From: Archangium lipolyticum | GTDB lineage: Bacteria; Myxococcota; Myxococcia; Myxococcales; Myxococcaceae | Assembly: GCF_024623785.1 (NCBI RefSeq) | Contig: NZ_JANKBZ010000007.1 | Coordinates: forward strand, 62,001-126,000 | DNA length: 64,000 nucleotides | Reading direction: 5' to 3' | Part shown: positions 7,312 to 37,586 of the stretch, one piece after another | Layout of the letters: each line of letters starts with the position of its first letter | Position numbering within the stretch: position 1 is the stretch's first letter | Notes under the pieces: model-generated | Told to the model about the DNA's origin: nothing | Databases searched by the model: none | Seen by the model: only the letters and a program-made list of their open reading frames with translations | Made by a program: the position numbers and the translations under genes

Positions 7312-7328
7312 TTGTAACGGTGTTGCAA
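7312..7328. promoter_or_regulatory. Zur-like box upstream of the transporter-WD40-GTPase operon
   Basis: TTGTAAC-GGT-GTTGCAA is a 17-bp palindrome with one mismatch, matching the four boxes at 36-37.6 kb that precede zinc-free ribosomal protein genes. It lies 51 bases before the ATG of the first operon gene, a typical repressor position. That it binds Zur is inferred from the company the motif keeps. Confidence 0.7.
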
Positions 7329-7378
7329 TAGAGTCTAGAGTGCGATAATTGAGGTGTCTCTCTCGCCTTGGATCTCGC

Positions 7379-8002
7379 ATGCTGGAAAGTGCCCTGAGCC
7401 TCGGGTTGGTACTCGGGCTTCGCCACGCCTCGGACGCCGACCACGTCTGCGCCATTGCTTCGCTGTTGAGGTCCGGGCAGGGGTTCCGGTCGGCCGTGCG
7501 CACGGCGCTTCTCTGGAGCCTGGGCCACTCGTTCGCCTTCTTCGCGGTCGGGGCGGTGCTCGTCGGCGGGCGGTTGTCGGTGCCAGGTGCCTGGGAGCCA
7601 GTGATGGAGCTCTTCGTCGCCGCCCTGCTGGTGACGCTGGGGACCGTGCAGTGGGGCCACGCGGACTGCCCGTTGCCCTCGGAGCCCGAGCCCGTGAGGC
7701 CGCACTCCTGGCGCGTGCTGCTGGTGGGCATCGTTCACGGCCTGGCGGGCTCCGCGGGCATCGCGCTCCTCGCGCTCGCCACCGTCCATGAGCGGCTCCC
7801 CGCCCTCCTGTTCCTCCTTTCGTTCGGCCTGGGCGTCTCTGGAGGCATGGTGCTGCTCACCGTCCTCCTGTCCCTGCCCCTGGGCTTCGTCGTCCGGAAC
7901 TCGGAGCGCTGGCGTGCCCGCATTCTCAAAGCGACCAGCGCGCTCGGCATCGGGCTCGGCGTGTGGATGGGTCTGTCGGGGCTGCGGGCCCTCGTGGGCT
8001 GA
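7379..8002 (+). CDS. HoxN/NixA/UreH-type metal transporter
   Basis: The protein has 207 residues and about six TM segments. The first helix carries RHASDADH, the H-A-x-D-A-D-H-like signature of the nickel/cobalt transporter family. A GHS motif and a second signature-like segment (GIVHGLAGSAGIALL) follow. These proteins move Ni2+ or Co2+ across the inner membrane, or act as UreH-type accessories. Its place behind a Zur-like box, with a WD40 protein and a COG0523 GTPase, suggests a role in low-zinc metal traffic rather than urease or B12. The ATG at 7379 has no clear Shine-Dalgarno; a TTG at 7349 is an alternative. Confidence 0.8.
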   Translation: MLESALSLGLVLGLRHASDADHVCAIASLLRSGQGFRSAVRTALLWSLGHSFAFFAVGAVLVGGRLSVPGAWEPVMELFVAALLVTLGTVQWGHADCPLPSEPEPVRPHSWRVLLVGIVHGLAGSAGIALLALATVHERLPALLFLLSFGLGVSGGMVLLTVLLSLPLGFVVRNSERWRARILKATSALGIGLGVWMGLSGLRALVG

Positions 8003-8012
8003 GAGGATGGTC

Positions 8013-9080
8013 ATGGCATCCACCCCAAGGAAGCGAAACGAGGCCCGCGGGCCCATGAGGCTCTTCGACATCGAGCTGCCGGACGGGGTCAGCTCGGTGG
8101 CCTTTTCGCCAGAGGGGCTCCGCATCGCGGCGGCCACCTTCGGCGGTCCGGTGCTCCTCGTCGACGCGAAGTCCGGTGCGGTGCTCCGGGAGCTGCCTGG
8201 ACACGCGGGCGGAACGCTCTCGGTGTGCTTCTCTCCGGACGGAGAGCAGCTCGTGACGGGAGGACAGGACGGCCAGGTCCGTGTTCATGCCTCGGAGTCG
8301 GGGCAGGAGCTCAACGCCTGGGAGGCCGGGGGAGCCTGGGTGGAGCACGTCCTGTGGTCTCCCTCGGGAAGCTACCTCGCCGCGGCGGCAGGGCGCTCCG
8401 TCCGCATCTGGTCTCGCCGGGGTACCCTGAAGGGCGGCTACGAGCAGCACGCCAGCACCGTCACCTCCATCCAATGGAGCGCGAGCGGCACGGGCATCAT
8501 CTCTTCGTGCAATGGCGGGATTCATCGGCTCGAGGCGGGCAGGAAGCGGCCCCTGCAGACGCTCGACGCGGAGAGCGCGGTCCTCTCCGTCGCCATCAGC
8601 CCGGATCGCCAGTACATCGCCGCGGGCAGGCAGGACCCGAGCATCCGGCTCTGGGTCGTGCGCTCCGCCGAGGCCGTCTCCTATGACATGCCGGGTTACC
8701 GGGCCAAGGTCCGCACGCTGGCGTGGAACTCCGCCAGCAGTCTCCTGGCCACCGGCGACGGCGAGGAGGTCGCCGTCTGGGAGTTGGGCTCCCGCATGCG
8801 CGAGCGGCAGCGCGCGCTTGCCCTGAAGGCCCACTCGGAGCGGGTCACGGGGCTCGCCTTCCTCGCGGACGGCACGGGCACCGAGCTGCTGCTCTCCACC
8901 GGGCAGGACGGGCGGCTCTGCGGCTGGAACCCCACCCGGGGACAGCGCCCGGTCTGGACACTCCAGGCGGACGTGGCCCTGGAGGGGCTGACCCTCTCGC
9001 CGGACAGGTCCGTGGCGGTGGCCATCGGGGCCGGCGGACGCCTGCTGGCGTGGAGCCTGGCGCGGCCCGTGCGGCACTGA
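8013..9080 (+). CDS. WD40 beta-propeller protein
   Basis: The protein has 355 residues and consists of about seven WD-type repeats, each with [17 protein letters not shown] or VAISPDRQY cores. There is no signal peptide, so it is cytoplasmic and likely a protein-binding propeller. GAGAGG at 8001-8006 sets the start at 8013; the ATG at 8007 is too close to it. It begins 10 bases after the transporter and is followed 41 bases later by the COG0523 GTPase. WD40 genes next to COG0523 genes are also known in some alphaproteobacterial Zur regulons, so it is probably a scaffold or client of the metallochaperone. Confidence 0.8.
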
Positions 9081-9121
9081 CCCCCTCTCCTGGCTGTACC
9101 TGGATTCACGGAGGCAACACC

Positions 9122-10558
9122 TTGGCGACTTCGGAGAAGAAGATTCCCGTCACCGTCCTGACCGGGTTTCTGGGCTCGGGCAAGACGACGCTCCTCAACC
9201 GCATCCTGACGGAGCAGCACGGCAAGCGCATCGCCGTCATCGAGAACGAGTTCGGGGAGATCGGTATCGACCAGGCGCTCGTCATCAACGCGGACGAGGA
9301 AGTCTTCGAGATGAACAACGGGTGCATCTGCTGCACGGTGCGAGGGGACCTCATCCGCATCCTCGGCAACCTCATGCGCCGCAAGGACCGGTTCGACCAT
9401 GTCCTCGTGGAGACCACGGGCATGGCGGACCCGAGCCCGGTGGCCCAGACGTTCTTCGTGGATGACGAGATCGGCTCCCAGTTCAAGCTCGACGGCATCG
9501 TCACCCTGGTGGACGCGAAGCACGTCTCCCTGCACATCGACGAGAGCGAGGAGTGCCAGGAGCAGATCGCCTTCGCCGACGTCATCATCATCAACAAAAT
9601 CGACCTGGTGACACCGGAGGAGGTCGAGCGGGTGGAGCGCCGCATCCGGAGCATGAACGCCATGGCCCGCGTCCAGCGGACCGTGAGGGGGCAGGTTTCC
9701 CTCGAGAGCGTCCTCGACGTGGGAGGCTTCGACCTGGGGCGGGCGCTGCGGCAGAAGCCCGCCTTCCTCGAGCCCGAGTACCCCTTCGAGTGGGGCGGCG
9801 TCCATGCGCTCCGGCCGGGTCTGGCCAGTCTCGTCCTCGCGGAGGGTCCGGATGCGACGATGGACGTCGCCCTCGTGCCGGTGGACTCCGCTGACGAGGC
9901 GGGGCTGAAGGCGGGCGCGGAGAAGGCCGTCCGCTTCTGGTCGCGCTCGCCCTCGCGCCGCGTCTCTGGCGATGCCCTCTCCGCAGGGGACACCCACTTC
10001 CAGCTCGACTTCGCGAAGAACCGGGGCCGCAAGGTGTACCCGCTGAAGGTTCCTCGCGAGGGGTTCTACGCACTCTTCACGGAGCATCGTCCGGAGGAGT
10101 ACGCGCTGGGGGTGGAGGATGCCGCGGGCAATGTCCTGGCGCGCCGGGCGGAGCGGTACTTCGGCGCCGGCCACTCGCACGACGAGACGGTGACGTCTGT
10201 CGGCATCCACCTGGAAGGAGAGGTCGACCAGCACCGGCTGAACGCCTGGCTGTCCAAGGTGCTTCAGGAGCAGGGCACGGACATCTTCCGGATGAAGGGC
10301 ATCCTCGCCATCGCGGGCCAGAAGAACCGCTACGTCTTCCAGGGGGTACACATGCTCTTCGACGGGCAGCCCGACAAGCCCTGGGGCAACACGCCCCGGG
10401 CCAACGACCTCGTCTTCATCGGCCGGAACCTGGACCGGGAGGCACTCACGGAAGGGTTCCGCCAGTGCCTCATGAGGAAAGGCGGCCCCGGGGCTCAGGC
10501 CCGCTCCCCGGGGCACGGTGGAATCACTCGCTCCAGTAGGTCTCGGTCATCACGCTGA
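9122..10558 (+). CDS. COG0523 (CobW/ZigA-type) GTPase, zinc metallochaperone
   Basis: The protein has 478 residues. The G domain has GFLGSGKTT (15-23), a VIENEFGE segment, the CxCC metal motif [10 protein letters not shown] (Cys68, 70, 71) and NKID; a CobW C-terminal domain follows. Family members use GTP hydrolysis to hand zinc or another metal to client enzymes. The upstream Zur-like box and lack of linkage to the B12 operon argue for a zinc role. There is no long His-rich loop, only GHSHDE. A TTG start is chosen because GGAGG lies 7 bases before. The last ~25 residues are Ser/Arg-rich, unlike the family, and overlap the 3' end of the convergent lipoprotein gene by 35 bases. Confidence 0.9.
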
Positions 10559-11540
10559 AGCCGTTCACGGTGTCGACGAAGATGGCGACGTTGTTCCCGC
10601 TCCAGGGGTCATCCGCGTAGCTGAAGTAGCAACCCTTGAACGAGCGCCCCGCGGTCAGTGCGTCGAGATTCGCCAGGCCGGCGGAGATCACGCTGCTGGA
10701 GATCTGGTTGTTCTGGTTGGCGGCGGACAGGGTGTCCACGATCTCGGCACGCACCTCGGCGGCGTCGGCCAGGTTCGGCCGGACGGTCGCGCCATACGGG
10801 ACGCTGCTCGGCTCGAGCCCGAAGCACTCCAGCCTCCCGACACGGTAGGTGCCGCGCGTCGTCACGACCTCCCACCAGTCGAAGTGGCGGGCCATGTTCG
10901 CGCCGTAGAGGCCATTCTGCGGCACCGCGTTCACCGCGTCGATGAGCGCCTCGAGGGGCCGGCTCAGCGTGGCCGCGTTCCGGATGTTCCGCAGGGCCAC
11001 GTCACCGATACCCGCGACGTTGGAGATGGCCTGGACCGACGTGAACGGGCGCAGGTTGAGGAGGTTGGAGGCGCCATTCCACGCGTCCGGCAGGACGTCA
11101 TGCAGCTCGGAGTCGCTGATGGTGTTCACCAGGGACACGATCGCGGCGGCGTCATCGGTGGAAACCGCGAGGCCGTCCAGGATGCCGATGCAGCTGGACC
11201 CGATGAAGCCCTCGTTCCGGGCACCACTCGCGAGCTGCTCGAGACGGGTCGGACCGACCAGCCGGACCGAGGAGATGTCCGCCAGGGACACGAAGGGCGC
11301 CGCCGCGCGCCGGGTGACGAGGTTGGTGGCGACGTCGCTCGGGAGGTACACGTCCAGCGTCTGGAACGACGCCGTGTTCACGAAGCCGAGGATGCCCTGG
11401 CACTCCGGGGCAACGTCCACGTTTGTCTGGGTGAGTGACGACTGCCGCTGCTCGATGGACTCGGAGGACGGATCGATTTCAGTACCACCGCAACCGGCGA
11501 ACAGGCTCACTGCGAGAAGGGCTTGGCCAATACGACGCAT
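10524..11540 (-). CDS. Secreted lipoprotein with ComEA-like helix-hairpin repeats
   Basis: The protein has 338 residues. The start at 11540 gives a lipoprotein signal ([17 protein letters not shown]), with GGAGC upstream. The mature N-terminal half holds two stretches resembling ComEA-type helix-hairpin-helix units: one around [18 protein letters not shown] with [18 protein letters not shown], the other around [16 protein letters not shown] with [16 protein letters not shown]. The C-terminal half is an unrecognised Cys-containing domain ([14 protein letters not shown]). ComEA-type domains bind DNA in the periplasm, but this link is only a fold-level guess. It stands alone and convergent with the COG0523 gene. 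Confidence 0.7.
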
Positions 11541-11657
11541 CAGGGGCTCCTCATGGGGGGATACAACGAGGGGAGGGGGTCCCATACACCAAATCCTCCC
11601 CGCCCACAGGTGTCATTCCCGCCAATTCAGCCATGAGAGGCAGCCCACCACGTTCCA

Positions 11658-14600
11658 TCACCGGGTGAGCGCGCGCAGGGGTGCATCACGGCCCAGGACG
11701 ATGAACGGGGCCCAGAAGGTGGGATGGGGATGAGACTGACGTAGGGCGAGCATGGCATCGCGCATGGCGGAGGAACGCCCCCTGCCCGCGAGGAGGTTGC
11801 GGTAGTACCCCTCCATGAGCACCCGTGTGGTGTCGTCGTTCACCTTCCAAAGGCTCATCACCACGGCTTCGGCCCCCGCGATGACGAAGGCCCGGCGGAG
11901 TCCGTAGACGCCCTGTCCGGGCTTGACGTCCCCGCGGCCGGTATCACAGGCCGAGAGGACGACGAGCTCGGTGCCCCACAGGTCGAGACCGGTGAGCTCG
12001 AGGGCGGTCACCAGGGAGCCTTCGGGCCGGAGCAGGGTGTTCTCGCCAGCGTTCGCCGCCGGGCTCCGTGCACCCGCGAGGACGAGACCGGAGCGCAGCA
12101 ACGGGTCGGGCGGGTACTGTCCAGGGCCCTCATTGCCAGACGTGCCCAGGTCTACGAGCGCGCGGGAACCCGCGGGCGCGGCGCTGGCATCCTCGAGGAA
12201 GAAGCCGTGGGTGGCGATGTGGAGGACCCTGGGCGCCGGGAGTTTCAGGAGCCGCTCCTTCGTCGCTTCCCCTCCCAGGAAGAGCTGCGCCTGGGGAATG
12301 AGGCGCTGGAGGGCCTTGGCTTCCTCGAGGGTGCCGGGCAATGGAACCCAGGGCCGCTCGGCGAGGCCGGCTCCCCGCGTGGAGAAGAAGCGCTCGATGG
12401 AGGAGCCCCAGGCGGGTGTTTCTTCCTGGGAAGGAGAGGGGCGTGCGGGTGGGACGCCGAAGTCCGGGTCGGCGAAGACGACGACCGAACGTGGCCCAAC
12501 GGCCCGTTGGGAGCGAGGCAGGAGGTCCTTGCCCGAGGTGAGGTAGGTGAAATCGAAGGTGTCGATGAGGAAGTGGTTGCCGTCGTGGAGCGCGGCGAAG
12601 GGGACGAGGCCGAGCTGTCCGTCGGGCGAGAGGTAGAGGCGGCGGGCGTCACCGAGCAACGGCAGGAGGGGCTGGAAGGCGAGGGAATGGAGTTCCCTGG
12701 AGAGGCCCAGGTAGGCGGCGTCACGGTCGGCGAGGCCATCCCGCAGGCGCGAGGCGGCGAGGTCGATGGGCGCGGCGGGCCCCAGGTCGATGACGCGGCT
12801 GCTTCCATCCGGAAGGAGCACCAGGGCCAGGTAGCGGAGCGTGCCTGGGTGTCGTGACCGTTCCGTGACTTCGGACGTGAGGACGAGCGGGCGGTCCGTG
12901 TAGAGGATGAGCTCGACGAGAGCGCCATCGGGGGGAAGCGTGGCCGCGACGCGGTCGACGATCTCGTCAGGAGACGGCAGTTCCGCGAGCGCGCGAAGGG
13001 CCACGGAACGCGAGGCGAGGTCGGCTTCGAGGGCATCCCCCCGTGCGGTGAGCTCCTTCAGGCGGTGCAGGTAGTCGGCGGGAGCGAGGTTGCCGGGGCC
13101 CTCGAGCGACAGCCTGGCGAGCTGGGTGCGCAGGTAGCGCAGCCGCTCGAAGGTGTCGCGATCCTGGGCACCCAGGCTGTGGTAGACGGCGCGGGAGGTG
13201 CCGGCGGTCTCCTCGACGGAGCGGCCCTTGCGCAGCAGCGCGGCGGCGAGCGCCAGGCGCCGCACGCGGGCGTCGTCTGGATACGCCCGGGCCAGGGAAT
13301 AGAGGCGATCCTCATCGGTGCGGATGAATTGGAGGAAGCCCGCCAGATGCGCCTCGGAGAAGTCGAGCGCCTCCTGGCGGAGGAGCCTCTCGGAAATGTC
13401 GAAGGCCCGCGTGAGGAGGGGCAGGGCTTCGGCGAGGCGATTCTGGGCGAGGCGGAGTTGGGCGAACGTGTTGAGCGTGAGGGCGACATCGGGGTGTGTC
13501 TTTCCGAGCGCCACTTCCTGAATGGCGAGTGCGCGCTGGAAGAGCAGGGCCGACCGTTCGTAGTGCCGCTGGTGCTGAAGGACACTGGCGAGGCTGTTGA
13601 GTGTGAGGGCGACATCGGGGTGTGTCTTTCCGAGCGCCGCTTCCTGAGTGGCCAGCGCGCGCTGAAGGAGCGGCTCCGCCCGTTTGTAGCGTCCCTCGTT
13701 CCGATAGACACTGGCGAGCTCGGTGAGTAGCCAGGCGATGTCTGGATGATTCTTGCCGAGCGCCGACTCCCAGATGACGAGCGCGCGCTGGAGGAGCGGC
13801 TCCGCCCGTGTGTACAATCCTTGTTTCCGATAACCGAAAGCCAGCTTGTTGAGCGCCGCGGCAACCCGCAGATGTTTCTTGCCGCAGGTTGCCTCGTAGA
13901 TGGCGAGTGCTCGCCGCAGGAGAGACTCCGCCCGGCCGTACATCCCCATGTCCTGATAGTGGGCGGCGGATTTGACGAGCAGGTCGGCGACCTCGAGATG
14001 GTTCTTGCCGAAGGCCTCTTCGTAGATGGCGATTCCACGCGCGTAGAGCTTCTCCCACCGGTAGAAGAGCGCCTGGTTGTAGAGGAAGGCGAGATTGTTG
14101 AAGGGGACGGCGATGTGGGGATGCGTCTTGCCGAGAGCGGATTCTTCGCTGATCGCGAGCGCGCGTTCATAGAGCGGCTCGAGCCGGCCACCGACGTTGA
14201 TGAGCAAATGGGTGGCTTCGGAGGGATGCTTGTCGAAGGTCTCCTCGAAGATGAAGATCGCGCGCGCATAGAGTGGCTCGCCATGCCCGTACAATCCCTG
14301 CTCGTCATAGAGTTGCGCGAGGTTCAAGAGGGCGTCGGCGACCTTGGGATGGTTCTCTCCGAGGGCTGCCTCGTAGACGGCGAGCGCACGCACGTAGAGC
14401 GTCTCGGCCCGGGCATACAACCCCTTTTCCTGATAGAGGAAGGCAAGATTGCTGAGCGAATAGGCGACGAGGAGGTGTTTCTCTCCAAGAACTGTTTCTT
14501 GGATGGCGAGCGCGCGCGTGTAGAGCGCCTCGGCCTGGCTGTATCGCCCCTGAATCTGATGGAGGGTCGCGAGGCCGTTGAGAGAGGATGCGACGTCGGG

Positions 14601-15086
14601 ATGGTCCTTGCCGAGGGCCGCTTCGCGAATGGCGAGCGCGCGTTCGTGGAGCGGTACCGCACGGCCGTACCGCCCCTGGAACTGGTAGAGGCGAGCGAGG
14701 TTGTTGAGAGAGGCGGCGACGTCGGGATGGTCCTTGCCGAGGGCCGCTTCGCGAATGGCGAGCGCACGCTCGTGGAGCGGAGCCGCACGGTCGTAGTAAC
14801 CCAGGTCCGCGTAGAGGTTGGCGAGGGTGTCGAGAGAAGAAGCGACGTCGGGATGGTTCTTGCCGAGGGCCGCTTCCCGGATGGAAAGCGCGCGCAGGAG
14901 GAGCGGCTCCGCGCGGGCGTACTTCCCCTGCTTCCAGGTGTGCTTGCCCGCGTCCTCGAGCCTCGTGCCCTCTTCAACGGCAGACCGCGCCTCCTCCAGG
15001 AGCGTGTTCGTTCCCTGCTGCCCCATGGCCGCGCCAGCCGCGCAGCACAAGACAGCCATGACCATCCACCCGAGCATTCGCTGCAT
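11658..15086 (-). CDS. Exported TPR-CHAT protein (caspase-like peptidase)
   Basis: The protein has 1142 residues. It starts with a Sec-type signal (LGWMVMAVLCCAAGAAMG) and continues with about 14 kinesin-light-chain-type TPRs of 42 residues each. The C-terminal ~300 residues form a CHAT domain, the caspase/separase relative. The predicted catalytic pair is His960 in ATHGFFLED and Cys1047 in LSACDTGRGD. Family members cleave proteins after a partner binds the TPRs. The signal peptide would place it outside the cytoplasm, which is unusual for a protease triggered by cytoplasmic partners. The start lacks a good Shine-Dalgarno; Met4 at 15077 is possible. Confidence 0.85.
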   Translation of the reverse strand: MQRMLGWMVMAVLCCAAGAAMGQQGTNTLLEEARSAVEEGTRLEDAGKHTWKQGKYARAEPLLLRALSIREAALGKNHPDVASSLDTLANLYADLGYYDRAAPLHERALAIREAALGKDHPDVAASLNNLARLYQFQGRYGRAVPLHERALAIREAALGKDHPDVASSLNGLATLHQIQGRYSQAEALYTRALAIQETVLGEKHLLVAYSLSNLAFLYQEKGLYARAETLYVRALAVYEAALGENHPKVADALLNLAQLYDEQGLYGHGEPLYARAIFIFEETFDKHPSEATHLLINVGGRLEPLYERALAISEESALGKTHPHIAVPFNNLAFLYNQALFYRWEKLYARGIAIYEEAFGKNHLEVADLLVKSAAHYQDMGMYGRAESLLRRALAIYEATCGKKHLRVAAALNKLAFGYRKQGLYTRAEPLLQRALVIWESALGKNHPDIAWLLTELASVYRNEGRYKRAEPLLQRALATQEAALGKTHPDVALTLNSLASVLQHQRHYERSALLFQRALAIQEVALGKTHPDVALTLNTFAQLRLAQNRLAEALPLLTRAFDISERLLRQEALDFSEAHLAGFLQFIRTDEDRLYSLARAYPDDARVRRLALAAALLRKGRSVEETAGTSRAVYHSLGAQDRDTFERLRYLRTQLARLSLEGPGNLAPADYLHRLKELTARGDALEADLASRSVALRALAELPSPDEIVDRVAATLPPDGALVELILYTDRPLVLTSEVTERSRHPGTLRYLALVLLPDGSSRVIDLGPAAPIDLAASRLRDGLADRDAAYLGLSRELHSLAFQPLLPLLGDARRLYLSPDGQLGLVPFAALHDGNHFLIDTFDFTYLTSGKDLLPRSQRAVGPRSVVVFADPDFGVPPARPSPSQEETPAWGSSIERFFSTRGAGLAERPWVPLPGTLEEAKALQRLIPQAQLFLGGEATKERLLKLPAPRVLHIATHGFFLEDASAAPAGSRALVDLGTSGNEGPGQYPPDPLLRSGLVLAGARSPAANAGENTLLRPEGSLVTALELTGLDLWGTELVVLSACDTGRGDVKPGQGVYGLRRAFVIAGAEAVVMSLWKVNDDTTRVLMEGYYRNLLAGRGRSSAMRDAMLALRQSHPHPTFWAPFIVLGRDAPLRALTR
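13450..14950 (-). repeat. Tandem ~126-bp TPR-coding repeats
   Basis: The TPR part of the CHAT gene is made of 126-base units. Neighbouring units share long identical runs, for example around 13480/13606 and 14588/14714. The conservation at DNA level suggests recent duplication or gene conversion, and repeat number may vary between strains. Confidence 0.75.
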
Positions 15087-15208
15087 ATGAATGCCGCATC
15101 ATGCAGCATGCATGGGACGGAGCCCATGCCACTGGCCTCCGCTGGGGAGCCCTGGGACGGAATGCCCTCGGACGGGCCGCGTGTAGTGGCTCAAGGGAGG
15201 GTTCCACC

Positions 15209-18610: not shown

Positions 18611-18616
18611 GCCGCC

Positions 18617-20817: not shown

Positions 20818-20844
20818 AAAAAACCACGGGGGAGCCCTTCCCCC
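20818..20844 (-). terminator. Rho-independent terminator after the Cys-rich small protein gene
   Basis: On the minus strand a GGGGGA/TCCCCC stem with a 5-base loop is followed a few bases later by six T residues. It lies 60 bases after the stop of the gene at 20905-21381. Confidence 0.75.
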
Positions 20845-20904
20845 ATTCGCAAGCCCGCCAGGCGAGCGAGCCCTGGCGCTCCCGGGCGCGGGGCACGCCA
20901 TGCC

Positions 20905-21752: not shown

Positions 21753-21789
21753 GGTGGTCTCCAAGGCTCGACGTGAACGGAAGAGGGGC

Positions 21790-24975: not shown

Positions 24976-25074
24976 GGCGGACGGAGGGCCGGAGAGAGGG
25001 CAGACCCTAGCGTGTGCGATGGCTTCAGGGGGAGCCCCCCCGTCCGGCAGCCACCTCGTATGATGGACGGAACG

Positions 25075-27798: not shown

Positions 27799-27898
27799 GT
27801 CACCGGAGCCTCCCTGGCAGGCTGCTGGGGTGCGGACCGGGCACCCCGGGGCGCATTCCCGCTGTCGGGGTCGGACCGGCCTGTTACAAACCCTACCC

Positions 27899-28462: not shown

Positions 28463-28479
28463 CTCCTCTCGCGTTCGCT

Positions 28480-30237: not shown

Positions 30238-30482
30238 GACCCGTCTCCTCGTCCAGTCGAGCCCAGCGCTCCTTCAGGAAGTCAGCGGGCTCATGCCATC
30301 GGGCGGACGTGACGGTGACACAGCTTTCAATCTCAAGGAAATCTGCCGTGGTCGCTGGCCCATGAATGGGCCAAGGAGATTGCTGGGGATGGTCGCTTTG
30401 AGGTCAACACAACGACCGTGATGTCGGCCTTCACGTGGGGCCAGCCGTGGAGGCTTCACAGCTCATGGGGTGTGGCGCCACG
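30238..30482. other. Kinase upstream region
   Basis: This gap holds the kinase promoter region with an 18-bp palindrome (30356-30373) and ends at the terminator of the AgmC-like gene. No small ORF with coding character is visible. Confidence 0.45.
30356..30373. promoter_or_regulatory. 18-bp palindrome upstream of the PEGA kinase
   Basis: TGGCCCAT-GA-ATGGGCCA has perfect 8-bp arms with a 2-base centre, about 120 bases upstream of the kinase ATG. The tiny spacer favours a dimeric-repressor operator over an RNA hairpin. The binding protein is unknown. Confidence 0.45.
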
Positions 30483-30528
30483 AAAAAAGCCGGGTCCCGC
30501 CTCCCAGGAAGGGGAGGGGAGCCCGGCT
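30483..30528 (-). terminator. Rho-independent terminator of the AgmC-like gene
   Basis: On the minus strand a long GC-rich hairpin (AGCCGGG.../...CCCGGCT with an inner GGGAGG/CCTCCC) is followed directly by six T residues. It lies 21 bases beyond the stop at 30550. Confidence 0.85.
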
Positions 30529-30549
30529 CGAATCACGGCCTGTGCGCCC

Positions 30550-32514
30550 TTAGTTGCGGCGCCGGCGGCGGGCCAGCGCGGCGAACGCGCCCAGGCCCAT
30601 CAGGACCAACGAGGTGTCCCGCCCCGTGCTCGAGCAGCCGTAACCACTGCCCAGCAGGGAGAGGTCGGCCTCGGTGATGCGGAAGGTCCGAGTGGCCGGG
30701 GTTTCGTCCACGTTGCCCGCTGCATCTCGGGCTCGCACCTCCAAGGTGTGCGCCCCCACGGTCAGGTTGCTGAAGGTGACAGGCGAGGGGCACGTGGTGA
30801 AGGAGGTCGCCCCATCCAGGCGGCACTCGTAGGTTACGTTCTGCTCATTCGATCTGAATTCGAATGTCGCGTTCAGCTCCCGGGTGAAGCCTGACGGGCC
30901 GGAGACGATCTCGGTTTCCGGCGGTGCTGTGTCCACGGTGAAGGTGTTGGTGGTGCTCTTGAGACTCCGCAGTGCCTCCACCTCCGCGACGGCATACACC
31001 GTGTGGCTGCCGTCGGCCAGGTCCGTGGTCGGAGTGAAGGTATAATTGCCGGCGGCATTGGACGTCGTCCGGCCGATCTCGTTCCCGTCGAGGTAGATGA
31101 TCACCTCGACGTTGGCAGTAGCCGTGCCCGTGATGGGGGGACGGCGGTTGCTGGTGATGCTGCCGTTGGCCGGCGTGACCACCGTGGGGGGAGTCGGCAC
31201 GATCAACCCGGTCGGTATCACCGTGGTGGCGCCGATGCTGCCCGGCTGAGCGCCGTAGGACTGTTCCACAGGATCCTGTTGGATGCCGGGTGCGGCACCG
31301 TTAGCGAAGACGTTGCAGGTGCCTCCCGGAGCGGCCTGGATCAGCACCCGCCCTCCTCCGCCACCACCACCAGGACCCACCCGTGGGGCGTTCACGTTGC
31401 CACCGATGCCGCCAGTGGCGAGAACCGAACCGCAATCGGCTGTCCTGACGAAGCGCAGGTAGATAGCTCCACCCGCGCCACCACCACCGCCTCCATCCGA
31501 GGCCGAGGTACCGCCCAGGTTACCCGAGGCGCTGATGCTGCCCGTACCCGTGAGTTGATTGGCCCGGATGAAGATGGCGCCACCCCCAGACCCTCCGGCC
31601 ACGCCCGTGTTGGTGGAGCCATGGCCGGCTCCACCACCTCCTCCGAAGGTGAAGTGGGTCAATGCCGAGTAGGTCAGCGCCGCGCCCCCTCTTCCTCCAA
31701 CCTCGGCTCCGCTCTCCGAGCGTCCTCCCTGACCGCCCGCCCCGCCATTGCCACCACCTCCTCCTCCCGACTTGAGGCAGATGCCGCCTCCAGCACCATT
31801 GGCCACGTTACTGCGCCCGGTCTGTGTGGGGCCGAACCGCGAGCTTCCGATGCCCTCGCCCTTCTGTGCACCCGAGGGGGCTGGCTCATCCTCTGTTGTG
31901 CAGCCTCGCGACCCGGAGGGATCGATGACGTACTGGCCTCCACGAAAACCGAGGCCGCTGGCGGCGATCTGCCCACTGTTGTTCACGGAGCCATTGGCCA
32001 GGAACGCGACGATACCGCCCGTGCTCCCATTCCATGCAGGGGCCGTGATGCTCTGGCCGGAGTTGATGGTGACGTTGCTGTACTCGGGCACCCGGATGAC
32101 CTGGGTCACGTTCGCCGCGTACGCGTAGACGAGCGGTGCCGTCAGCTCCAGGGTCGATCCCGTTGCCGAGGCCAGCCTCGCGAATTCCCAACGCCCCACC
32201 GGGCTGTTGCCGAGGTCGACGGGAGGCACCTGCTCGAGGCTGGCCGTCTGGTACACCATCACCAGATCTCCGGCCGTGAAGCACGGGGACACTCCGGTGC
32301 AGGCTCCGATCGTGATGGAGGTGTTCCCCACCGCCAGCGCCGCCGTCACCGGGGCATAGCTGTTGATGAAGGTGCCGCTCGTCGACACCACGAGCGCCCC
32401 GTCTCTTCCCGTGCCGATCCCGAACGTGTCGTGTTCGGCCCGTGCCGCCGTCGCTCCGAGGGCCAGCACGCACAGCGCGGCCGCGAGCCACTTCTTCATG
32501 AATGGAGTTTTCAT
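30550..32514 (-). CDS. Glycine-rich surface protein with MYXO-CTERM, AgmC-like
   Basis: The protein has 654 residues. A signal peptide (LAAALCVLALGATAARA) precedes a ~350-residue region with very Gly-rich, collagen-like patches (GGGGGGNGGAGGQGG). Two Ig-like domains follow, about residues 430-525 (bacterial Ig-like, ADGSHTVYAVAEVEAL) and 530-615. The end is a MYXO-CTERM signal: GYGCSSTGRD, a hydrophobic helix, then RRRRRN, a sorting tag for myxobacterial surface proteins. Proteins of this shape are annotated as adventurous gliding motility protein AgmC in related species; I recall this but cannot align it. It follows an OmpA-family gene by 18 bases, so the two likely form an operon. Confidence 0.75.
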   Translation of the reverse strand: MKTPFMKKWLAAALCVLALGATAARAEHDTFGIGTGRDGALVVSTSGTFINSYAPVTAALAVGNTSITIGACTGVSPCFTAGDLVMVYQTASLEQVPPVDLGNSPVGRWEFARLASATGSTLELTAPLVYAYAANVTQVIRVPEYSNVTINSGQSITAPAWNGSTGGIVAFLANGSVNNSGQIAASGLGFRGGQYVIDPSGSRGCTTEDEPAPSGAQKGEGIGSSRFGPTQTGRSNVANGAGGGICLKSGGGGGGNGGAGGQGGRSESGAEVGGRGGAALTYSALTHFTFGGGGGAGHGSTNTGVAGGSGGGAIFIRANQLTGTGSISASGNLGGTSASDGGGGGGAGGAIYLRFVRTADCGSVLATGGIGGNVNAPRVGPGGGGGGGRVLIQAAPGGTCNVFANGAAPGIQQDPVEQSYGAQPGSIGATTVIPTGLIVPTPPTVVTPANGSITSNRRPPITGTATANVEVIIYLDGNEIGRTTSNAAGNYTFTPTTDLADGSHTVYAVAEVEALRSLKSTTNTFTVDTAPPETEIVSGPSGFTRELNATFEFRSNEQNVTYECRLDGATSFTTCPSPVTFSNLTVGAHTLEVRARDAAGNVDETPATRTFRITEADLSLLGSGYGCSSTGRDTSLVLMGLGAFAALARRRRRN

Positions 32515-32532
32515 GGCCTTTGCTTCCTTGGG

Positions 32533-34389
32533 CTACTGCTCGCTGTCGGGGTTGACGATGGTGAACGCCACGCGGCGGTTGGCCGCACGGCCCCTGGACG
32601 TCTTGTTCGGCAGGAGGGGACGATCGGGCCCGTAGCCCCTCGCCTCCAGACGCGAGGGCTCCACGCCCTTCTTCACCAGGTAGTCCCTCACCGACTCCGC
32701 ACGCGCCAGCGACAGCTTGCGGTTGACGTCCGCGTTGCCGACGTTGTCGGTGTGGCCCTCGATGATGATCTTGTCGATCTCCGGGTGCTGCTGGATGACC
32801 CGGGCGATCTGATCCAGCATCTTGAAGGAGCGGCGCTGGATGATCGCCTTGTTGGTGGCGAAGAACACCGCCTGCTTGATCTCCAGCTTGCCCTTCTGGA
32901 TGGCCACGAGCTGCTCCTGCTGCGGCGGGCAGCCGTGGTTGCTTTCCACGCCCTTCTCCTTGGGGCAGTTGTCCAGGTGGTCCGACACGTTGTCGCCGTC
33001 CGTGTCCCTCGGCGGGCAGCCGCGGAGCTCCACCAGACCGGCCTCCGTCGGGCAGAGGTCACGCTCATCCACGACGCCGTCGCCATCCGTGTCCTTCACC
33101 GGGCAGCCCTGACGCGCGGCCGGGCCCGCTTCCCGGGGGCACTTGTCCGCGGCGTCGTCGATGCCGTCGCCATCCCGGTCCTTCACCGGGCAGCCCTGGT
33201 CCGCGGCCAGACCCGGCTCCTTGGGGCACTTGTCCTCAGAGTCCGCGACGCCATCCCCGTCCGTGTCCTTCTCCCCGGCGCAGCCCTGGTTCTCGGCCGG
33301 GCCCGGCTCCCGCGGGCACCTGTCCACGGAGTCGTCGAGGCCGTCGCCATCCGTGTCCTTCACCGGGCAGCCCTTGCGCTCGGCCGGGCCCGGCTCGTTG
33401 GGGCACTTGTCCTCGCTATTCGGCACGCCGTCGCCGTCGTCATCGCGCGGCCCGGAGTCCGGGGGCTCGGAGCCGCCAAAGGCCACGCCGAGCAGCACGC
33501 GGAACGAGGGCGTGCCCGGCGTATCACCGAAGCCGGGTCCTCCCAGCGCGTAGGCCTCCATCAGGCTGCTCAGCGGCAGCCGTACGCCGGCCAGCACCTC
33601 CAGGGACTTCGGCTGACGGGTGAGCGGCAGCGTGCCGCGCACGTTGAGCTCTCCGCGCAGCCCGCTACCCGTGGTGGCGAGGACCGCGCCCAGGCGCACC
33701 TCGTTGCCCACCTCGTCCTGGACGGTCTCGTCATTGATGAGCGTGACCGTGGGCCGCACCATCGCGCCCGCCTCCACACCGGCCCGGATCAGACCGAAAC
33801 GCCGGCCCAGCATCACCTTGGGAGAGAACCGGAAGGTGCTGTCCCGCGAGAGCGTCTCCACGCTGCCCACGGGCAGCCCCACGCCCAGGTCGACCGCCAG
33901 GTCCAATGGAGCCTCCCGCCGCTGCGAGAGCAGCCCCACCCGCACGTTCACCGAGGGCGTGGAGAGACCCGTCTGGGCCGGAGCGGAGATGCCCTGGGCG
34001 CTGAGGTCGTCTCCCCGCTGCCAGACCACCAGGGGCACCTGGAGGCCCAGCTCCAGCCACCGGAGCGGAGCCCAGGCCACCAGCAGGTGCGCCATGGCGC
34101 GGTCGCCCACCACCGCTCCCACCGGATTCTCATCCGCGTAGAGAACGAGGGGATCCTTCTCGTAGTGCCCCAGGAGCGAGAGGCGGAATCCTCCCGCGGG
34201 CAGCAACTCGCCAGTTCCCATCACCAGCGAGCCCCGGCCGTTGGGGTTCAGCTCCAGGCGCTCCAGCTCGAATTGCGGTACGCCCGTGGGTTGGGCGAGC
34301 GCCGCCGAGGTGAGCAACAAGGCGGCAAGGGCGGACAGACGCACGTACCCCGCCGAACGCATCGGCGGGCGCGGCTTCGTGTAGCTCAT
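32533..34389 (-). CDS. OmpA-family protein with thrombospondin type 3 repeats
   Basis: The protein has 618 residues. A signal peptide ends near LLLTSAALA. An N-terminal ~290-residue beta-barrel-like region leads to about six calcium-binding TSP3 repeats (DTDGDGVADSEDKCP type). The C-terminal OmpA/MotB domain binds peptidoglycan (IIIEGHTDNVGNADVNRKLSLARAESVRDYL). It should tie the outer membrane to the cell wall, with a Ca-stiffened spacer. The start at 34389 follows GGAG and yields the signal peptide; longer frames lack one. It is first in the pair with the AgmC-like gene. Confidence 0.88.
   Translation of the reverse strand: MSYTKPRPPMRSAGYVRLSALAALLLTSAALAQPTGVPQFELERLELNPNGRGSLVMGTGELLPAGGFRLSLLGHYEKDPLVLYADENPVGAVVGDRAMAHLLVAWAPLRWLELGLQVPLVVWQRGDDLSAQGISAPAQTGLSTPSVNVRVGLLSQRREAPLDLAVDLGVGLPVGSVETLSRDSTFRFSPKVMLGRRFGLIRAGVEAGAMVRPTVTLINDETVQDEVGNEVRLGAVLATTGSGLRGELNVRGTLPLTRQPKSLEVLAGVRLPLSSLMEAYALGGPGFGDTPGTPSFRVLLGVAFGGSEPPDSGPRDDDGDGVPNSEDKCPNEPGPAERKGCPVKDTDGDGLDDSVDRCPREPGPAENQGCAGEKDTDGDGVADSEDKCPKEPGLAADQGCPVKDRDGDGIDDAADKCPREAGPAARQGCPVKDTDGDGVVDERDLCPTEAGLVELRGCPPRDTDGDNVSDHLDNCPKEKGVESNHGCPPQQEQLVAIQKGKLEIKQAVFFATNKAIIQRRSFKMLDQIARVIQQHPEIDKIIIEGHTDNVGNADVNRKLSLARAESVRDYLVKKGVEPSRLEARGYGPDRPLLPNKTSRGRAANRRVAFTIVNPDSEQ
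33000..33450 (-). repeat. TSP3-coding repeats in the OmpA-family gene
   Basis: Units of about 80-85 bases encode DxDGDGxxDxxDxCP segments and share runs such as CCGTCCGTGTCCTT. They are protein-coding repeats with a calcium-binding pattern, not CRISPR. Confidence 0.8.
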
Positions 34390-34652
34390 GGGTTCTCCGG
34401 CAGGGAAAGCAGGGTCACCCGTGCATTCGGGGAGCCGCGGTTTCGGCATCCCGGTGCTGGTCTCTCTCGTCTTCCCTGTCATTCGATCAATCCGCCCACT
34501 CCTACCGCCACTGTCTCGCCGGGGCAATGAAACGTTGCTGGAAGACAGGGGGGAACGTCCCGAGCATCTACCCGTGGACCTTCAGGCGCGGAGGATCGAT
34601 CCGCTCATATCGGATTTGTGAAGGATCCCATGTGCGGAACCCCCAACGGGGA
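34390..34652. other. OmpA-family gene upstream region
   Basis: No gene can be supported here. It presumably contains the promoter of the OmpA-AgmC-like operon. It includes an AT-rich spot near 34600-34625 (GGATCGATCCGCTCATATCGGATT). Confidence 0.4.
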
Positions 34653-34689
34653 CCCCCACGCGGTGGAACACGTCCACCGCGTGCGGGGG
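34653..34689 (-). terminator. Strong hairpin terminator after infC
   Basis: Arms 34653-34667 and 34673-34689 pair over 15 bp with one bulged base (CCCCCACGCGGTGGA against its complement) around a 5-base loop. It starts 5 bases after the infC stop codon. There is no long T tract, but the stem is very stable. It cuts infC off from downstream genes, so no rpmI or rplT is cotranscribed. Confidence 0.75.
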
Positions 34690-34694
34690 CTCAC

Positions 34695-35366
34695 TCAGGG
34701 CGCCGGGCTGGGCGCATCCTGAACGCTGGCCTCGGGGGCGCTGGCGGGCTCGGACTTCTCGGTGTTCGAGGTCCGTTTGGCGCTCAACGCGGCCTGCCGT
34801 GCCAGCTCGCGGGCCCGCTGGGCGACCTTGGGCGTGGGCGCGAGGATCATGAACATCAGACGCCCTTCCATGCGGGGCGCCTGTTCGATCACCGCCACAT
34901 CCTTCAGGTCCTTCGCCACGTCCTCCAGGATGGCGGTGCCCTGCTCCCGGTGCGTGATTTCCCGGCCGCGGAACTGGATGACGACCTTCGCCTTGTTCCC
35001 GTCCTCGATGAACCGGCGCATGTTGCGGACCTTGAACTCGTAGTCGTGCTCCTCCGTCTTCGGCCGGAGCTTCACTTCCTTGAGCTCGACCTTGAGCTGC
35101 GCACGCTTCGATTCCGAGGCCTTCTTCTTCTCCTCGTACTTGAACTTGCCGTAGTCCATCAGCTTGCAGACCGGGGGACTGGCCATGGGGCTGATCTCGA
35201 CGAGGTCGAGTCCCTCGCTCCGGGCCCGCTCCAGGGCCGCCTCGAGGGGCATGACTCCGAGCTGCGAGCCATCGGCTCCCACGACGCGAACCTCGCGAGC
35301 GCGGATACGGCGGTTGGTTCTCTGGTCGCGGCTACCGCCGCGGCTGCTTCTCTGGTCGCGAATGAT
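34695..35366 (-). CDS. infC: Translation initiation factor IF-3 (Dsg-type), AUC start
   Basis: The protein has 223 residues when read from ATC 35366, preceded by GGAGGAG at a 6-base spacing. The next codon is ATT, and the nearest upstream AUG/GUG in frame lies before the Shine-Dalgarno, so a non-standard start is almost certain. IF3-N (NRRIRAREVRVV, SPMASPPVCKLMDYGKFKYE) and IF3-C (LRPKTEEHDYEFKVRN, GREITHREQG) are intact, followed by a ~45-residue Ala/Ser/Pro-rich tail. M. xanthus dsg likewise encodes IF3 with an AUC start and a C-terminal extension linked to development. IF3 rejects non-AUG starts, so the start implies autoregulation. rpmI and rplT, its usual followers, are absent. Confidence 0.93.
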   Translation of the reverse strand: MIRDQRSSRGGSRDQRTNRRIRAREVRVVGADGSQLGVMPLEAALERARSEGLDLVEISPMASPPVCKLMDYGKFKYEEKKKASESKRAQLKVELKEVKLRPKTEEHDYEFKVRNMRRFIEDGNKAKVVIQFRGREITHREQGTAILEDVAKDLKDVAVIEQAPRMEGRLMFMILAPTPKVAQRARELARQAALSAKRTSNTEKSEPASAPEASVQDAPSPAP

Positions 35367-35677
35367 GTGACTCTCCTCCGAAATGGGTTTCAGGTCTGTC
35401 CCCACAAAGGTGGGACAGCCCCCGCCGGTATGACAGGGGACCGGATACGGCTGGGTGGCAGTCCGCTCTTCTCTCGTCCCCCGCCTGACAAGGGGGCCTC
35501 CGGACGTAGGAGTGCCTCCCGGCGCTTGCTCGCCCGGTAGGAAGGGGAGTGGATGATGCGTTCCCCCCGGCCCTGGACGGGCAAGGGAGGGTCATAACAC
35601 CTGGCCCGGGCTCCCGCCGAGGAACCTCGTGGCCAGTGTGCTGAAGGATACGGACCCCGCTGCCTGCCCGCCTGCCC
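35367..35677 (-). other. Long infC leader with a hairpin next to the ribosome site
   Basis: About 310 bases lie between DUF1826 and infC, with no gene in them. At 35396-35418, CTGTCCC and GGGACAG pair, extendable to 9 bp with an AAAG loop, ending 17 bases before the Shine-Dalgarno. A second CCCCC/GGGGG pair lies further upstream (about 35480-35500). infC leaders are often regulatory, for example through L20 binding. A regulatory role here is inferred. Confidence 0.5.
35373..35379 (-). promoter_or_regulatory. Shine-Dalgarno deciding the infC start
   Basis: GGAGGAG on the minus strand lies 6 bases before ATC 35366 and 9 bases before ATT 35363. It fixes the start of infC at one of these codons. 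Confidence 0.85.
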
Positions 35678-36322
35678 TTAGAGGAGATCCACGGACAGGA
35701 GCAACCGGCGCTCGGAGCCGGGCGGGGAGCGGTGGACCACGCCATACCCCTCGTTGTCGGGCCAGGCCTCGCCCTTGAGAAGCCCCACGGCGAAAGGAGC
35801 GAGGTGCCGCGTCACCGCGCCCGGCCGGGCGATGCCGTCCGTCTCCCCGTTGCCCTCCGCGGGGGCGCCCAGACGCGCCCGCCGTGCGTCACGCTCCTCG
35901 AGGTACTCGGTGCCCGGGCCCGCGTAGGTGCACAACATACGCACACCCACCCGGTCCACATGGAAGCGGGGACACATGGGCGCATCGAGCGTGCCCAGCC
36001 GCAGCCCCACGCGTTCCGCGCCGAAGAGGTCCGCGTACAACTCCACGAGTCCGGCCAGCTCCTGCTGGAAGCGTGCGCGGCCGGGCGACTCGGACAGCGG
36101 CGACAGCAGACCTCCCAGCTCCGCGTCTTCCACCTGCGCCTGTCTCACCTCGAGGAAGTCATGGGTGGCGCAGACCTCTCTCAGCCACTGGGCGAGCGTT
36201 TCGTCCACGGGGCGCTCCCAGACGCAGAGGTTGACGTGCTTTTCGAAGATGACGACCAGGTCGGCCGCTTCACTCACGGTGACGCAGGAGTCCAGGGTGG
36301 GGCGGGGGGCGGACAGAGGCAT
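35678..36322 (-). CDS. DUF1826 family protein, probable Zur-regulated zinc-stress protein
   Basis: The protein has 214 residues. The conserved block CPRFHVDRVGVRMLCTYAGPGTEYL marks DUF1826. The family has no known activity; the His and Asp in RFHVD resemble a metal site. It is repeatedly found near COG0523 GTPases and Zur-controlled genes in proteobacteria. The start at 36322 is chosen because a longer frame would run through the Zur-like boxes into the divergent rpmG gene. The box at 36376-36392 lies 54 bases upstream. Confidence 0.82.
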   Translation of the reverse strand: MPLSAPRPTLDSCVTVSEAADLVVIFEKHVNLCVWERPVDETLAQWLREVCATHDFLEVRQAQVEDAELGGLLSPLSESPGRARFQQELAGLVELYADLFGAERVGLRLGTLDAPMCPRFHVDRVGVRMLCTYAGPGTEYLEERDARRARLGAPAEGNGETDGIARPGAVTRHLAPFAVGLLKGEAWPDNEGYGVVHRSPPGSERRLLLSVDLL

Positions 36323-36375
36323 GGGGTAGCTCCGGCAACAGGGGGCATTCCGCGGGAGCGGAGGAGAATGACTTA

Positions 36376-36392
36376 ATGCAACCGTGTTGCGA
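36376..36392. promoter_or_regulatory. Zur-like box, DUF1826 side
   Basis: ATGCAAC-CGT-GTTGCGA is a 17-bp palindrome with one mismatched arm position. It lies in the divergent region between DUF1826 (minus) and rpmG (plus), closer to DUF1826. Confidence 0.8.
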
Positions 36393-36416
36393 AAGAAAGG
36401 GTGCCCAGGGTATTGG

Positions 36417-36433
36417 ATGCAACGGAGTTGCAT
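36417..36433. promoter_or_regulatory. Zur-like box, rpmG side (perfect palindrome)
   Basis: ATGCAAC-GGA-GTTGCAT has perfect 7-bp arms and ends 18 bases before the rpmG ATG. It is the best copy of the motif in the window and overlaps where the rpmG promoter or leader must be. Confidence 0.85.
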
Positions 36434-36451
36434 CTTGCAGGAGAGGACACC

Positions 36452-36616
36452 ATGCCCAAGGGCAATCGCACCATCATCCATCTCGTCTCGACCGCGGGAA
36501 CCGGCTACGCCTACACGACGACGAAGAACAAGCGGAAGTCGCAGGAGAAGCTCCAGCTCAAGAAGTACGACCCGCGCATCCGCAAGCACGTGTTGTTCGT
36601 GGAAGGCAAGCCATGA
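36452..36616 (+). CDS. rpmG: 50S ribosomal protein L33, zinc-free type
   Basis: The protein has 54 residues, starting [20 protein letters not shown], with [21 protein letters not shown]. It matches E. coli-type L33 and contains no cysteine at all, so it lacks the CxxC zinc ribbon of the zinc-binding form. AGGAGAGG lies 6 bases before the ATG. A perfect Zur-like box just upstream marks it as the spare copy made when zinc is scarce, so that zinc-containing L33 can be replaced. A zinc-type copy elsewhere in the genome is expected. Confidence 0.93.
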
Positions 36617-36650
36617 GCGCCTCTGCTGGGATTCCTCATGGGAGGCGCCC

Positions 36651-36860
36651 ATGCGTCACCGGCGTGGGTTGATGCCACATGGCAAGTCCGTCGCGCGGCC
36701 GCTCTGTGCCCGGCCGCGCGAGCGCTTCCGGGAGTTCGCTCCGCCCGAGCTCATCGCGGTGGAGCCGGCGGAGGACGCCGAAGACGGAGCTTCCTCCAGG
36801 CTGCCGGAGCACCTGCGCCTGGTGCATCCCTCGGAGTCCTCGTCCGGACCCCAGGCTTGA
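36651..36860 (+). CDS. Hypothetical 69-aa protein in the Zur-controlled rpmG transcript
   Basis: The protein has 69 residues, starting MRHRRGLMPHGKSVARPLCA. The N-terminal third is basic, the middle acidic (LIAVEPAEDAEDGA) and the tail polar. GGGAGG lies 4-5 bases before the ATG, and it starts 34 bases after rpmG, before a shared terminator. It carries one cysteine and two His but is not S18, L31 or L36 by eye. Co-transcription with zinc-free L33 suggests a low-zinc role, possibly ribosome-related. The family is not recognised. Confidence 0.5.
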   Translation: MRHRRGLMPHGKSVARPLCARPRERFREFAPPELIAVEPAEDAEDGASSRLPEHLRLVHPSESSSGPQA

Positions 36861-36874
36861 CGTGACGACAGCCA

Positions 36875-36912
36875 GAGGGGACGCGCGAGCGGGATGACTC
36901 GTGCTTCCCCTC
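36875..36912. terminator. Bidirectional terminator between rpmG and rpmB transcripts
   Basis: Arms 36875-36889 and 36898-36912 pair at 14 of 15 positions (GAGGGGA...TCCCCTC) around an 8-base loop. The hairpin sits in the 64-base space between two convergent Zur-controlled units. Confidence 0.75.
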
Positions 36913-36924
36913 CGTCATTTCAGC

Positions 36925-37161
36925 TCAGAGCTTCTCGCCCCGCTGGAGCATCTCCGCGACCACGCGATCGATGCCCCGCTTGTTGATGATGCGGATGCCA
37001 TGAGCGCTGACGCGCAGCCGCACGAAGCGGTTGAGGCTCGGCACCCAGTAGCGGTGGCTCTGGATGTTCGGCAGCGAGCGCGTCTTCGTCTTGTTGTTCG
37101 CGTGGCTGACGTTGTTGCCCACCAGTGGGCGCTTCCCGGTGACCTGACAGACCTTGGACAT
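36925..37161 (-). CDS. rpmB: 50S ribosomal protein L28
   Basis: The protein has 78 residues: [20 protein letters not shown], then [21 protein letters not shown]. This is the E. coli-type L28, with a single Cys and no zinc knuckle. It begins 11 bases after rpsN and shares its double Zur-like boxes. A second L28 paralog elsewhere would be expected. Confidence 0.93.
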
Positions 37162-37172
37162 GTGCGTGCTCC

Positions 37173-37475
37173 TCACCAGCTCGACTTGGTGACGCCGACG
37201 ATTTCCCCCGCCAGTGCCTTGTCGCGGAAGGCGATGCGCGACATGCCGAAGCGGCGCAGGAATCCACGGGGGCGGCCCGTGAAGGCGCACCGGTTGACCA
37301 CCCGGTTGGGGTTGGCGTCGCGCGGCAGCTTCGCCAGCTCCGTCTGCGCCCGCACCCGCGTCTCGAGGTCGCCCGCCGTGCGGATGAGCTCCTTCAGTGC
37401 GGCCCTCTTCGCCGCGTACTTCGCGACCAGCGCCTTGCGCTGTTCGTTCTTCGCCACCTTGCTCGTCTTCGCCAT
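37173..37475 (-). CDS. rpsN: 30S ribosomal protein S14, zinc-free long type
   Basis: The protein has 100 residues: [20 protein letters not shown], then [25 protein letters not shown]. The ~100-residue form has only one Cys and lacks the CxxC-x12-CxxC zinc site of the short S14. Such C-minus paralogs under Zur let cells spare zinc. GGAGG lies about 10 bases before the ATG. The two boxes upstream lie 52 and 95 bases from the start. Confidence 0.93.
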
Positions 37476-37526
37476 CTTCTTCCTGCCTCCTCCAAGCGCA
37501 TTCCCAGTACCCTGGTCCGGACGTAG

Positions 37527-37543
37527 ATGCAATCGTGTTGCAT
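37527..37543. promoter_or_regulatory. Zur-like box upstream of rpsN-rpmB (proximal)
   Basis: ATGCAAT-CGT-GTTGCAT is a 17-bp palindrome with one mismatch. It lies 52 bases before the rpsN start on the minus strand. Confidence 0.82.
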
Positions 37544-37569
37544 GTGAACGGACCCGGCTCTTGATTTAT

Positions 37570-37586
37570 TCGCAATAGGGTTGCAT
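37570..37586. promoter_or_regulatory. Zur-like box upstream of rpsN-rpmB (distal)
   Basis: TCGCAAT-AGG-GTTGCAT lies 43 bases (about four helical turns) from the proximal box. It is also 68 bases before the plus-strand gene at 37654, so it could act both ways. Confidence 0.75.

Follow-up and report, generated by a model that had tools for sequence, protein, structure and literature searches.

Fur-family repressors that sense zinc (Zur) have been described in Escherichia coli, Bacillus, and Streptomyces, where they act on a palindromic box with AT-rich half-sites and have zinc-free paralogs of ribosomal proteins among their targets (PMC6103462). A different spelling, ATGCAACNNNGTTGCAT, was predicted as the Zur box (ZUR_D) of the znuABC-zur operon in two Desulfovibrio genomes (Rodionov et al., 2004; PMC545781). 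DUF1826 is listed, in the legend of Figure 4, among the genes clustered with Zur-regulated COG0523 genes, and COG0523 subfamily 5 is found beside WD40 genes (Haas et al., 2009; PMC2770081). COG0523 genes are also Zur targets in Cupriavidus metallidurans, where most targets carry one box and expression of the two-box operon requires zinc starvation (PMC10882993). Here, a 17-bp palindrome is examined that occurs five times in a 64,000-nucleotide stretch (hereafter, the window) of the genome of Archangium lipolyticum, a member of the Myxococcota. It is proposed, with a probability of roughly 0.92, that this palindrome is the operator of a putative Zur encoded in the same genome at C4:236191-236643 (C, G, and L denote contigs, genomes, and loci). 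The spelling of the palindrome is not new: the identical 17-bp consensus was predicted in 2004 upstream of the Desulfovibrio zinc operon, which includes a Fur-family zur gene. The likeness noted here concerns the spelling of the operator; the Desulfovibrio box heads znuABC-zur, whereas here znuABC lacks a box and the palindrome heads a wider set comprising zur, COG0523, zinc-free ribosomal proteins, a TonB receptor, lipoproteins, and others. Its GC-containing half-site, TGCAAC, does set it apart from the AT-rich Zur boxes, as the original prediction, made from the sequence of the window alone, had pointed out. The comparison with C. metallidurans, which belongs to a different phylum, concerns targets and box numbers. 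A literature search, with RegPrecise and most subscription journals outside its reach, returned no report of a Zur operator from Myxococcota, and the main text of Haas et al. (2009) contains no word beginning Myxococc.

The A. lipolyticum genome (G000) amounts to 12.59 Mb in 75 contigs, and the window, with a G+C content of 69%, is C7:62001-126000. The five palindromes that had been reported there were all found at their coordinates:

7312..7328, no strand: Zur-box-like palindrome TTGTAACGGTGTTGCAA, one mismatch, 51 bp before a NicO-like gene
36376..36392, no strand: Zur-box-like palindrome ATGCAACCGTGTTGCGA, one mismatch, between DUF1826 and L33
36417..36433, no strand: Zur-box-like palindrome ATGCAACGGAGTTGCAT, exact, ~19 bp before L33 and 41 bp from the 36376 box
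37527..37543, no strand: Zur-box-like palindrome ATGCAATCGTGTTGCAT, exact, ~53 bp before S14
37570..37586, no strand: Zur-box-like palindrome TCGCAATAGGGTTGCAT, one mismatch, 43 bp from the 37527 box

Mismatches refer to the 15-bp core TGCAAYNNNRTTGCA, which is present exactly at 36417 and 37527 and with one mismatch each at 7312, 36376, and 37570. A sixth copy at ≤2 mismatches was not found in the window, in agreement with the earlier statement that it holds no other good one. In 60 dinucleotide shuffles, the five places at ≤1 mismatch compare with a mean of 0.083 and a maximum of 1, and the two exact matches with none. At two mismatches, the excess is modest, with 10 strand-matches against 4.14 expected (standard deviation 2.79) and with 5 of 100 shuffles reaching 10.

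The whole genome was scanned with mismatch patterns of the palindrome, with the reversed pattern as a control. At ≤1 mismatch, 32 places were found (control, 7). It had been allowed that a genome-wide matrix might return many random sites; the mismatch-pattern scan returned 10 exact places against 0 for the control. Nine of these 10 lie within ~165 bp upstream of a gene start:

C7, in the window: two exact boxes, before L33/DUF1826 and before S14-L28
C4: exact box 153 bp upstream of a Fur-family gene
C7:199-202 kb: exact boxes before two exported lipoproteins
C8: exact box before a DUF418 gene
C9: exact box before an S8 protease
C11: exact box before a COG0523 GTPase
C22: exact box before an ABC ATPase and two DUF3526 permeases (ABC-2 exporter; L023:5295-8838)

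Identities were assigned with Pfam. Gene calls were made with a home-made codon-score caller and starts are approximate; the ABC ATPase (L023) and the DUF418 gene (L020) were overlooked by the caller and recovered by eye. The tenth exact place, C43:83035 (L024), lies inside a Gly-rich open frame and was taken as a chance match. A further seven of the 22 one-mismatch places fit, namely those of the operon at 7312, the second boxes at 36376 and 37570, the TonB receptor, a third lipoprotein, a second box of the protease, and a lipoprotein homolog on C57 (L030). At the other 15 (L025-L029, L031-L037, L039-L041), no zinc target was recognized, Pfam having been run for one neighboring gene at L025 and one at L028. 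The symmetrized information of the 16 assigned sites spans ~21 bp, WNWTGCAAYNNNRTTGCAWNW.

Searches with profile hidden Markov models bore out the gene names that had been proposed for the window (DUF1826, L33, S14, L28, and cobW with CobW_C). The genes at the boxes are:

7379..8002, + strand: NicO/HoxN-like small metal transporter, first gene of the operon (PF03824, E 1.6e-6, barely above the cut-off)
8055..9080, + strand: WD40 beta-propeller protein (PF00400, E 8.7e-39)
9122..10558, + strand: COG0523 (CobW-type) GTPase, candidate zinc metallochaperone (PF02492, E 7.2e-63; PF07683, E 5.5e-26)
35678..36322, - strand: DUF1826 protein, divergent from L33 (PF08856, E 2e-54)
36452..36616, + strand: L33, cysteine-free (zinc-independent) paralog (PF00471; Cys-rich copy at C23:575-712)
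36672..36860, + strand: small open reading frame (ORF) of 62 aa with a REFAPPELIAVEP stretch (PPELIxVE), after L33; similar ORFs follow the zinc-free L33 in G165 and G146 (by eye)
36925..37161, - strand: L28 without CxxC pairs (PF00830; CxxC copy at C12:66267-66431)
37173..37475, - strand: S14, long type without CxxC (NF006477, E 1.9e-37; short CxxC copy at C28:6855-7004)
37654..38328, + strand: divergent gene sharing the S14 boxes, no Pfam match

The L33, L28, and S14 proteins that appear to be controlled by the boxes thus lack CxxC pairs, which are kept in the second copies on C23, C12, and C28. Because of its WD40 neighbor gene, the GTPase of the NicO-WD40-COG0523 operon may belong to COG0523 subfamily 5.

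Only two Fur-family genes above threshold were found in G000, a Fur/PerR-type gene at C3:54151 and the gene on C4, upstream of which lies the exact box that had been anticipated for zur:

C4:236191-236643: P0001, candidate Zur, 151 aa, exact box 153 bp upstream

P0001 is a member of the Fur family (PF01475, E 4.8e-13), and in phmmer comparisons with solved Fur chains it matched Mycobacterium tuberculosis FurB/Zur with an E of 4.8e-5 and E. coli Zur with an E of 0.003. A structural Cys4 zinc site is present: E. coli positions 103, 106, and 143 are Cys in 64 of 64 aligned Zur-type rows and position 146 in 63 of 64 (one gap), G000 included.

Conservation was assessed in 44 genomes of the phylum that were chosen for spread with their exact-copy counts in view; 41 of them match P0001, Fur paralogs included. 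A total of 38 zur-type loci were compared, 30 returned by the search and eight picked further down the list, of which four (G003, G097, G149, and G183) had a nearby exact copy that was known beforehand. Within 300 bp upstream, a box was found at ≤1 mismatch in 19 of the 38 (6 exact) and at ≤2 mismatches in 24, compared with 0 of 38 at ≤2 mismatches for the reversed control; among the 30 search-returned loci alone, the numbers were 13 and 18. At Fur paralog loci, a box at ≤1 mismatch was found in 0 of 20. Orthologs of the COG0523 GTPase, sought by protein and not by motif (E at most 1e-100), number 12 and are spread over 11 of 23 genomes; all but the one in G166 have a box within 400 bp (11/12, 10 of them exact). 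In five aligned COG0523 upstream regions, the box forms a conserved island amid diverged DNA. DUF1826 is present in six of 26 genomes, in three with its own box and in three directly behind COG0523. The NicO-like gene was found in three of 23 genomes; the G161 ortholog (87% identical) is likewise preceded, at 51 bp, by a one-mismatch box, and a G008 homolog (39% identical) has none. A second, long S14 occurs in three of the 44 genomes (G000, G165, and G146), each time preceded by a box, while no copy at ≤2 mismatches was present in the 2.6-3.3 kb inspected in nine genomes that have the long S14 as their single match. An S18 gene precedes L33 in G165 (Pfam) and G146 (by eye). G143 shares the boxes before the DUF418 gene, the protease, and the lipoproteins; that before DUF418 is also present in G161, and those before the lipoproteins in G177. 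G143 has nine exact places, of which eight were inspected and seven fit a G000 target; two of three do so in G161. Of 15 further loci from genomes with exact copies (L266-L280), zur or COG0523 stands at the box in eight. At least one exact match is present in 103 of 193 genomes of the phylum, but as it is often a single match, presence alone says little. The palindrome is found, as an operator would be, upstream of zinc-sparing and zinc-uptake genes across species, and the original reading of it as a Zur operator gains support from the low number of chance sites and from its recurrence in relatives before zur, COG0523, DUF1826, L33, and S14-L28.

Several observations weigh against this reading. 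Half of the G000 places at ≤1 mismatch (16/32; control, 7) were assigned no plausible target, and no copy with fewer than three mismatches is present within 300 bp at 14 of the 38 zur-type loci. Exact places without a recognized target include L268, L270, L272, L273, L274, L276, and L280, and no zinc target was found at L254 in G143 and L259 in G161, at three places in G149 (L116-L118), or at two in G039 (L119 and L120). None of ten places inspected in G048 adjoins a homolog of the G000 targets. A match before znuABC had also been expected, and this did not hold: the only ZnuA-family locus in G000 (C20) has no box, the best copy in the surrounding 16 kb having three mismatches. In P0001, alignment places V, F, G, and C at positions 77, 88, 96, and 111, which we take to be the regulatory zinc ligands of E. 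coli Zur, so that this site is not matched. Other Zurs use other ligands at the regulatory site, which suggests that P0001 has a different site rather than no site. P0001 also scores 27.7 bits against the curated Zur model NF008646 (cut-off, 167) and remains below the cut-offs of the other six NCBIfam Fur-family models listed; several Fur, PerR, and Irr models give it a higher score than NF008646 does.

This failure of the candidate to pass any NCBIfam Zur cut-off, together with the similar palindromic layout of Fur-family boxes in general, would be compatible with the boxes being read by another regulator that drives zinc genes, such as the Fur/PerR-type protein at C3:54151 or an unrelated zinc or stress regulator. 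This is considered unlikely, since the box stands before the candidate Zur gene and is absent at the 20 Fur paralog loci, and since the first residue of the recognition helix separates Zur-type proteins from Fur paralogs (see below). Less probable still, to the point of being barely credible, is that the palindromes represent a dispersed repeat, terminator hairpins, or chance. Such an origin would agree with the modest excess in the window at two mismatches, with the impression that some cyanobacterial tandem matches look like repeat arrays, and with G048, where none of the inspected copies is beside a G000-target homolog and six of the ten lie inside called open frames. It accounts poorly for 10 exact places against 0 in the control, for information that is confined to ~21 bp, and for the position of the box upstream of the same orthologs in several genera where the flanks have diverged. 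The 6.9-Mb G048 genome (L242-L251) contains 20 exact copies (control, 0), of which those ten were inspected; the caller may be unreliable there, and this genome was left out of the support for the operator.

If the palindrome is a Zur operator, a zinc-loaded Zur dimer would, in zinc-replete cells, occupy the box WNWTGCAAYNNNRTTGCAWNW and block the promoter. As zinc falls, Zur would release the box, and cysteine-free L33, S14, and L28 would be made and would replace the zinc-holding copies, freeing their zinc. Release would also allow expression of the COG0523 GTPases, the TonB receptor with the exported lipoproteins, the ABC-2 exporter, and more Zur. The paired boxes, 41-43 bp or about four helical turns apart, may hold the ribosomal genes off until starvation is severe, whereas the single imperfect box of the 7312 operon may let go earlier. 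By analogy with the two-box operon of C. metallidurans, which opens only in zinc starvation, the two-box ribosomal genes should open last. For this group of large-genome bacteria, the palindrome would offer an operator clean enough, in statistical terms, to be used in searches for the genes of the zinc-starvation regulon.

A search of GTDB contigs for a tandem pattern, in which a second box starts 26-56 bp away, returned at least 118 stretches; 97 of the 118 matches listed are from Bacteroidota or Betaproteobacteria (by our own count of titles). Pfam was run on 145 ORFs of ≥100 aa that start within 200 bp of tandem boxes, a set that represents the loci with such an ORF. Among the matches listed, these gave cobW (14), ABC_tran (14), FUR (10), TonB plug (10), MerC (9), ZnuA (4), and Zip (2), and with a Zur profile, 39 of the 118 loci listed proved to contain a Fur-family ORF at E ≤1e-4. 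The occurrence of tandem boxes beside zinc genes in Bacteroidota and Betaproteobacteria indicates that the operator is not peculiar to Myxococcota and suggests that the box predicted in Desulfovibrio belongs to the Zur operators in wide use. In an 8-kb Desulfovibrionaceae contig (L161), zur was not recognized. It can be added that ABC ATPases, as seen at the C22 box, are also common next to tandem boxes in other phyla, where they make up 14 of the 145 ORFs among the matches listed, some of them ZnuC-like.

A midpoint-rooted tree of 66 proteins, with long branches and open forks, was used for the broad split only. One group of 54 (support 95/86) unites the Zurs of family f1, class-level relatives, Bacteroidota, and Betaproteobacteria and is separate from the Zur and Fur of E. 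coli. Four tandem-locus rows (L183, L213, L216, and L232) and six rows of family f3 with exact boxes fall outside this group; the placement of single rows is unsure because of the long branches. In family f3, which comprises order-level relatives, a ZIP-like gene, below the Pfam cut-off, is the neighbor of the distant Zur type, which has an exact box (L108:627-3176, L277, and L279), and a gene for a GDT1-family antiporter lies opposite (Pfam on L108 only).

The recognition helix of E. coli Zur starts at Pro60, and Arg65 reads a base (PMC4219657); the proteins compared here have other residues at the places of Tyr45 and Pro60. At position 60 in E. coli Zur numbering, 59 of 64 Zur-type rows carry Arg or Lys, compared with one of 21 Fur-type rows; the former number may be inflated, since similarity to these Zurs was how the rows were collected. 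Position 44 is His in 42 of 64 Zur-type rows versus none of 21 Fur-type rows. Zur-type rows without Arg or Lys at position 60 are those of G019 (two), G030, L277, and L228, and L277 still has an exact box, which counts against a role of this residue; so do G151, G088, G032, and G185, which have Arg or Lys but no good box before zur. The correlation points to the residue at the start of the helix as one that could explain operator choice in the Fur family.

The exported lipoproteins form a tandem, box-linked set in G000 (L019:9281-12848; C7:198280-201850), with three adjacent lipoprotein genes near the TonB receptor (L019 10610-12848) and homologs in L114, L111, L261, and L263. The columns H55, C57, H59, and H85 are invariant in 11 of 11 lipoprotein sequences, no Pfam family was found for the shared part, and in the C57 homolog (L030) the histidines are lost. 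One lipoprotein was modeled as a beta-sandwich with a mean predicted local distance difference test score of 77.8, and a Foldseek search with this model returned beta-sandwich-type domains at E ~1e-3, the best being the collagen-binding domain of a collagenase. Our guess is that these HxCxH lipoproteins bind zinc, in which case they would constitute a new class of zinc-capture protein. A joint reading of operator, regulator, and lipoproteins is put forward tentatively, with the odds leaning somewhat against it: one Zur lineage, shared by this phylum, Bacteroidota, and Betaproteobacteria, would read a common TGCAAY-N3-RTTGCA operator, its spelling set by the Arg at the start of the helix (the place of E. 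coli Pro60); the distant f3 Zur, with the same Arg and box, would be convergent; and in the genome's own family the regulon would feed the new exported HxCxH...H lipoproteins, capturing zinc for the adjacent TonB receptor.

Two minor observations concern the genes next to the boxes. On C11 of G000 and in G143 (L310/L311), a shortened open frame like the zinc-free L33 was seen by eye between the box and COG0523; a full L33 is in this place in G161, G177, and G165, and the shortened frame looks like a decaying copy. In G146, a gene at L111:4107-4769 resembles, by eye, the gene at 37654-38328 of the window and is likewise divergent from S14.

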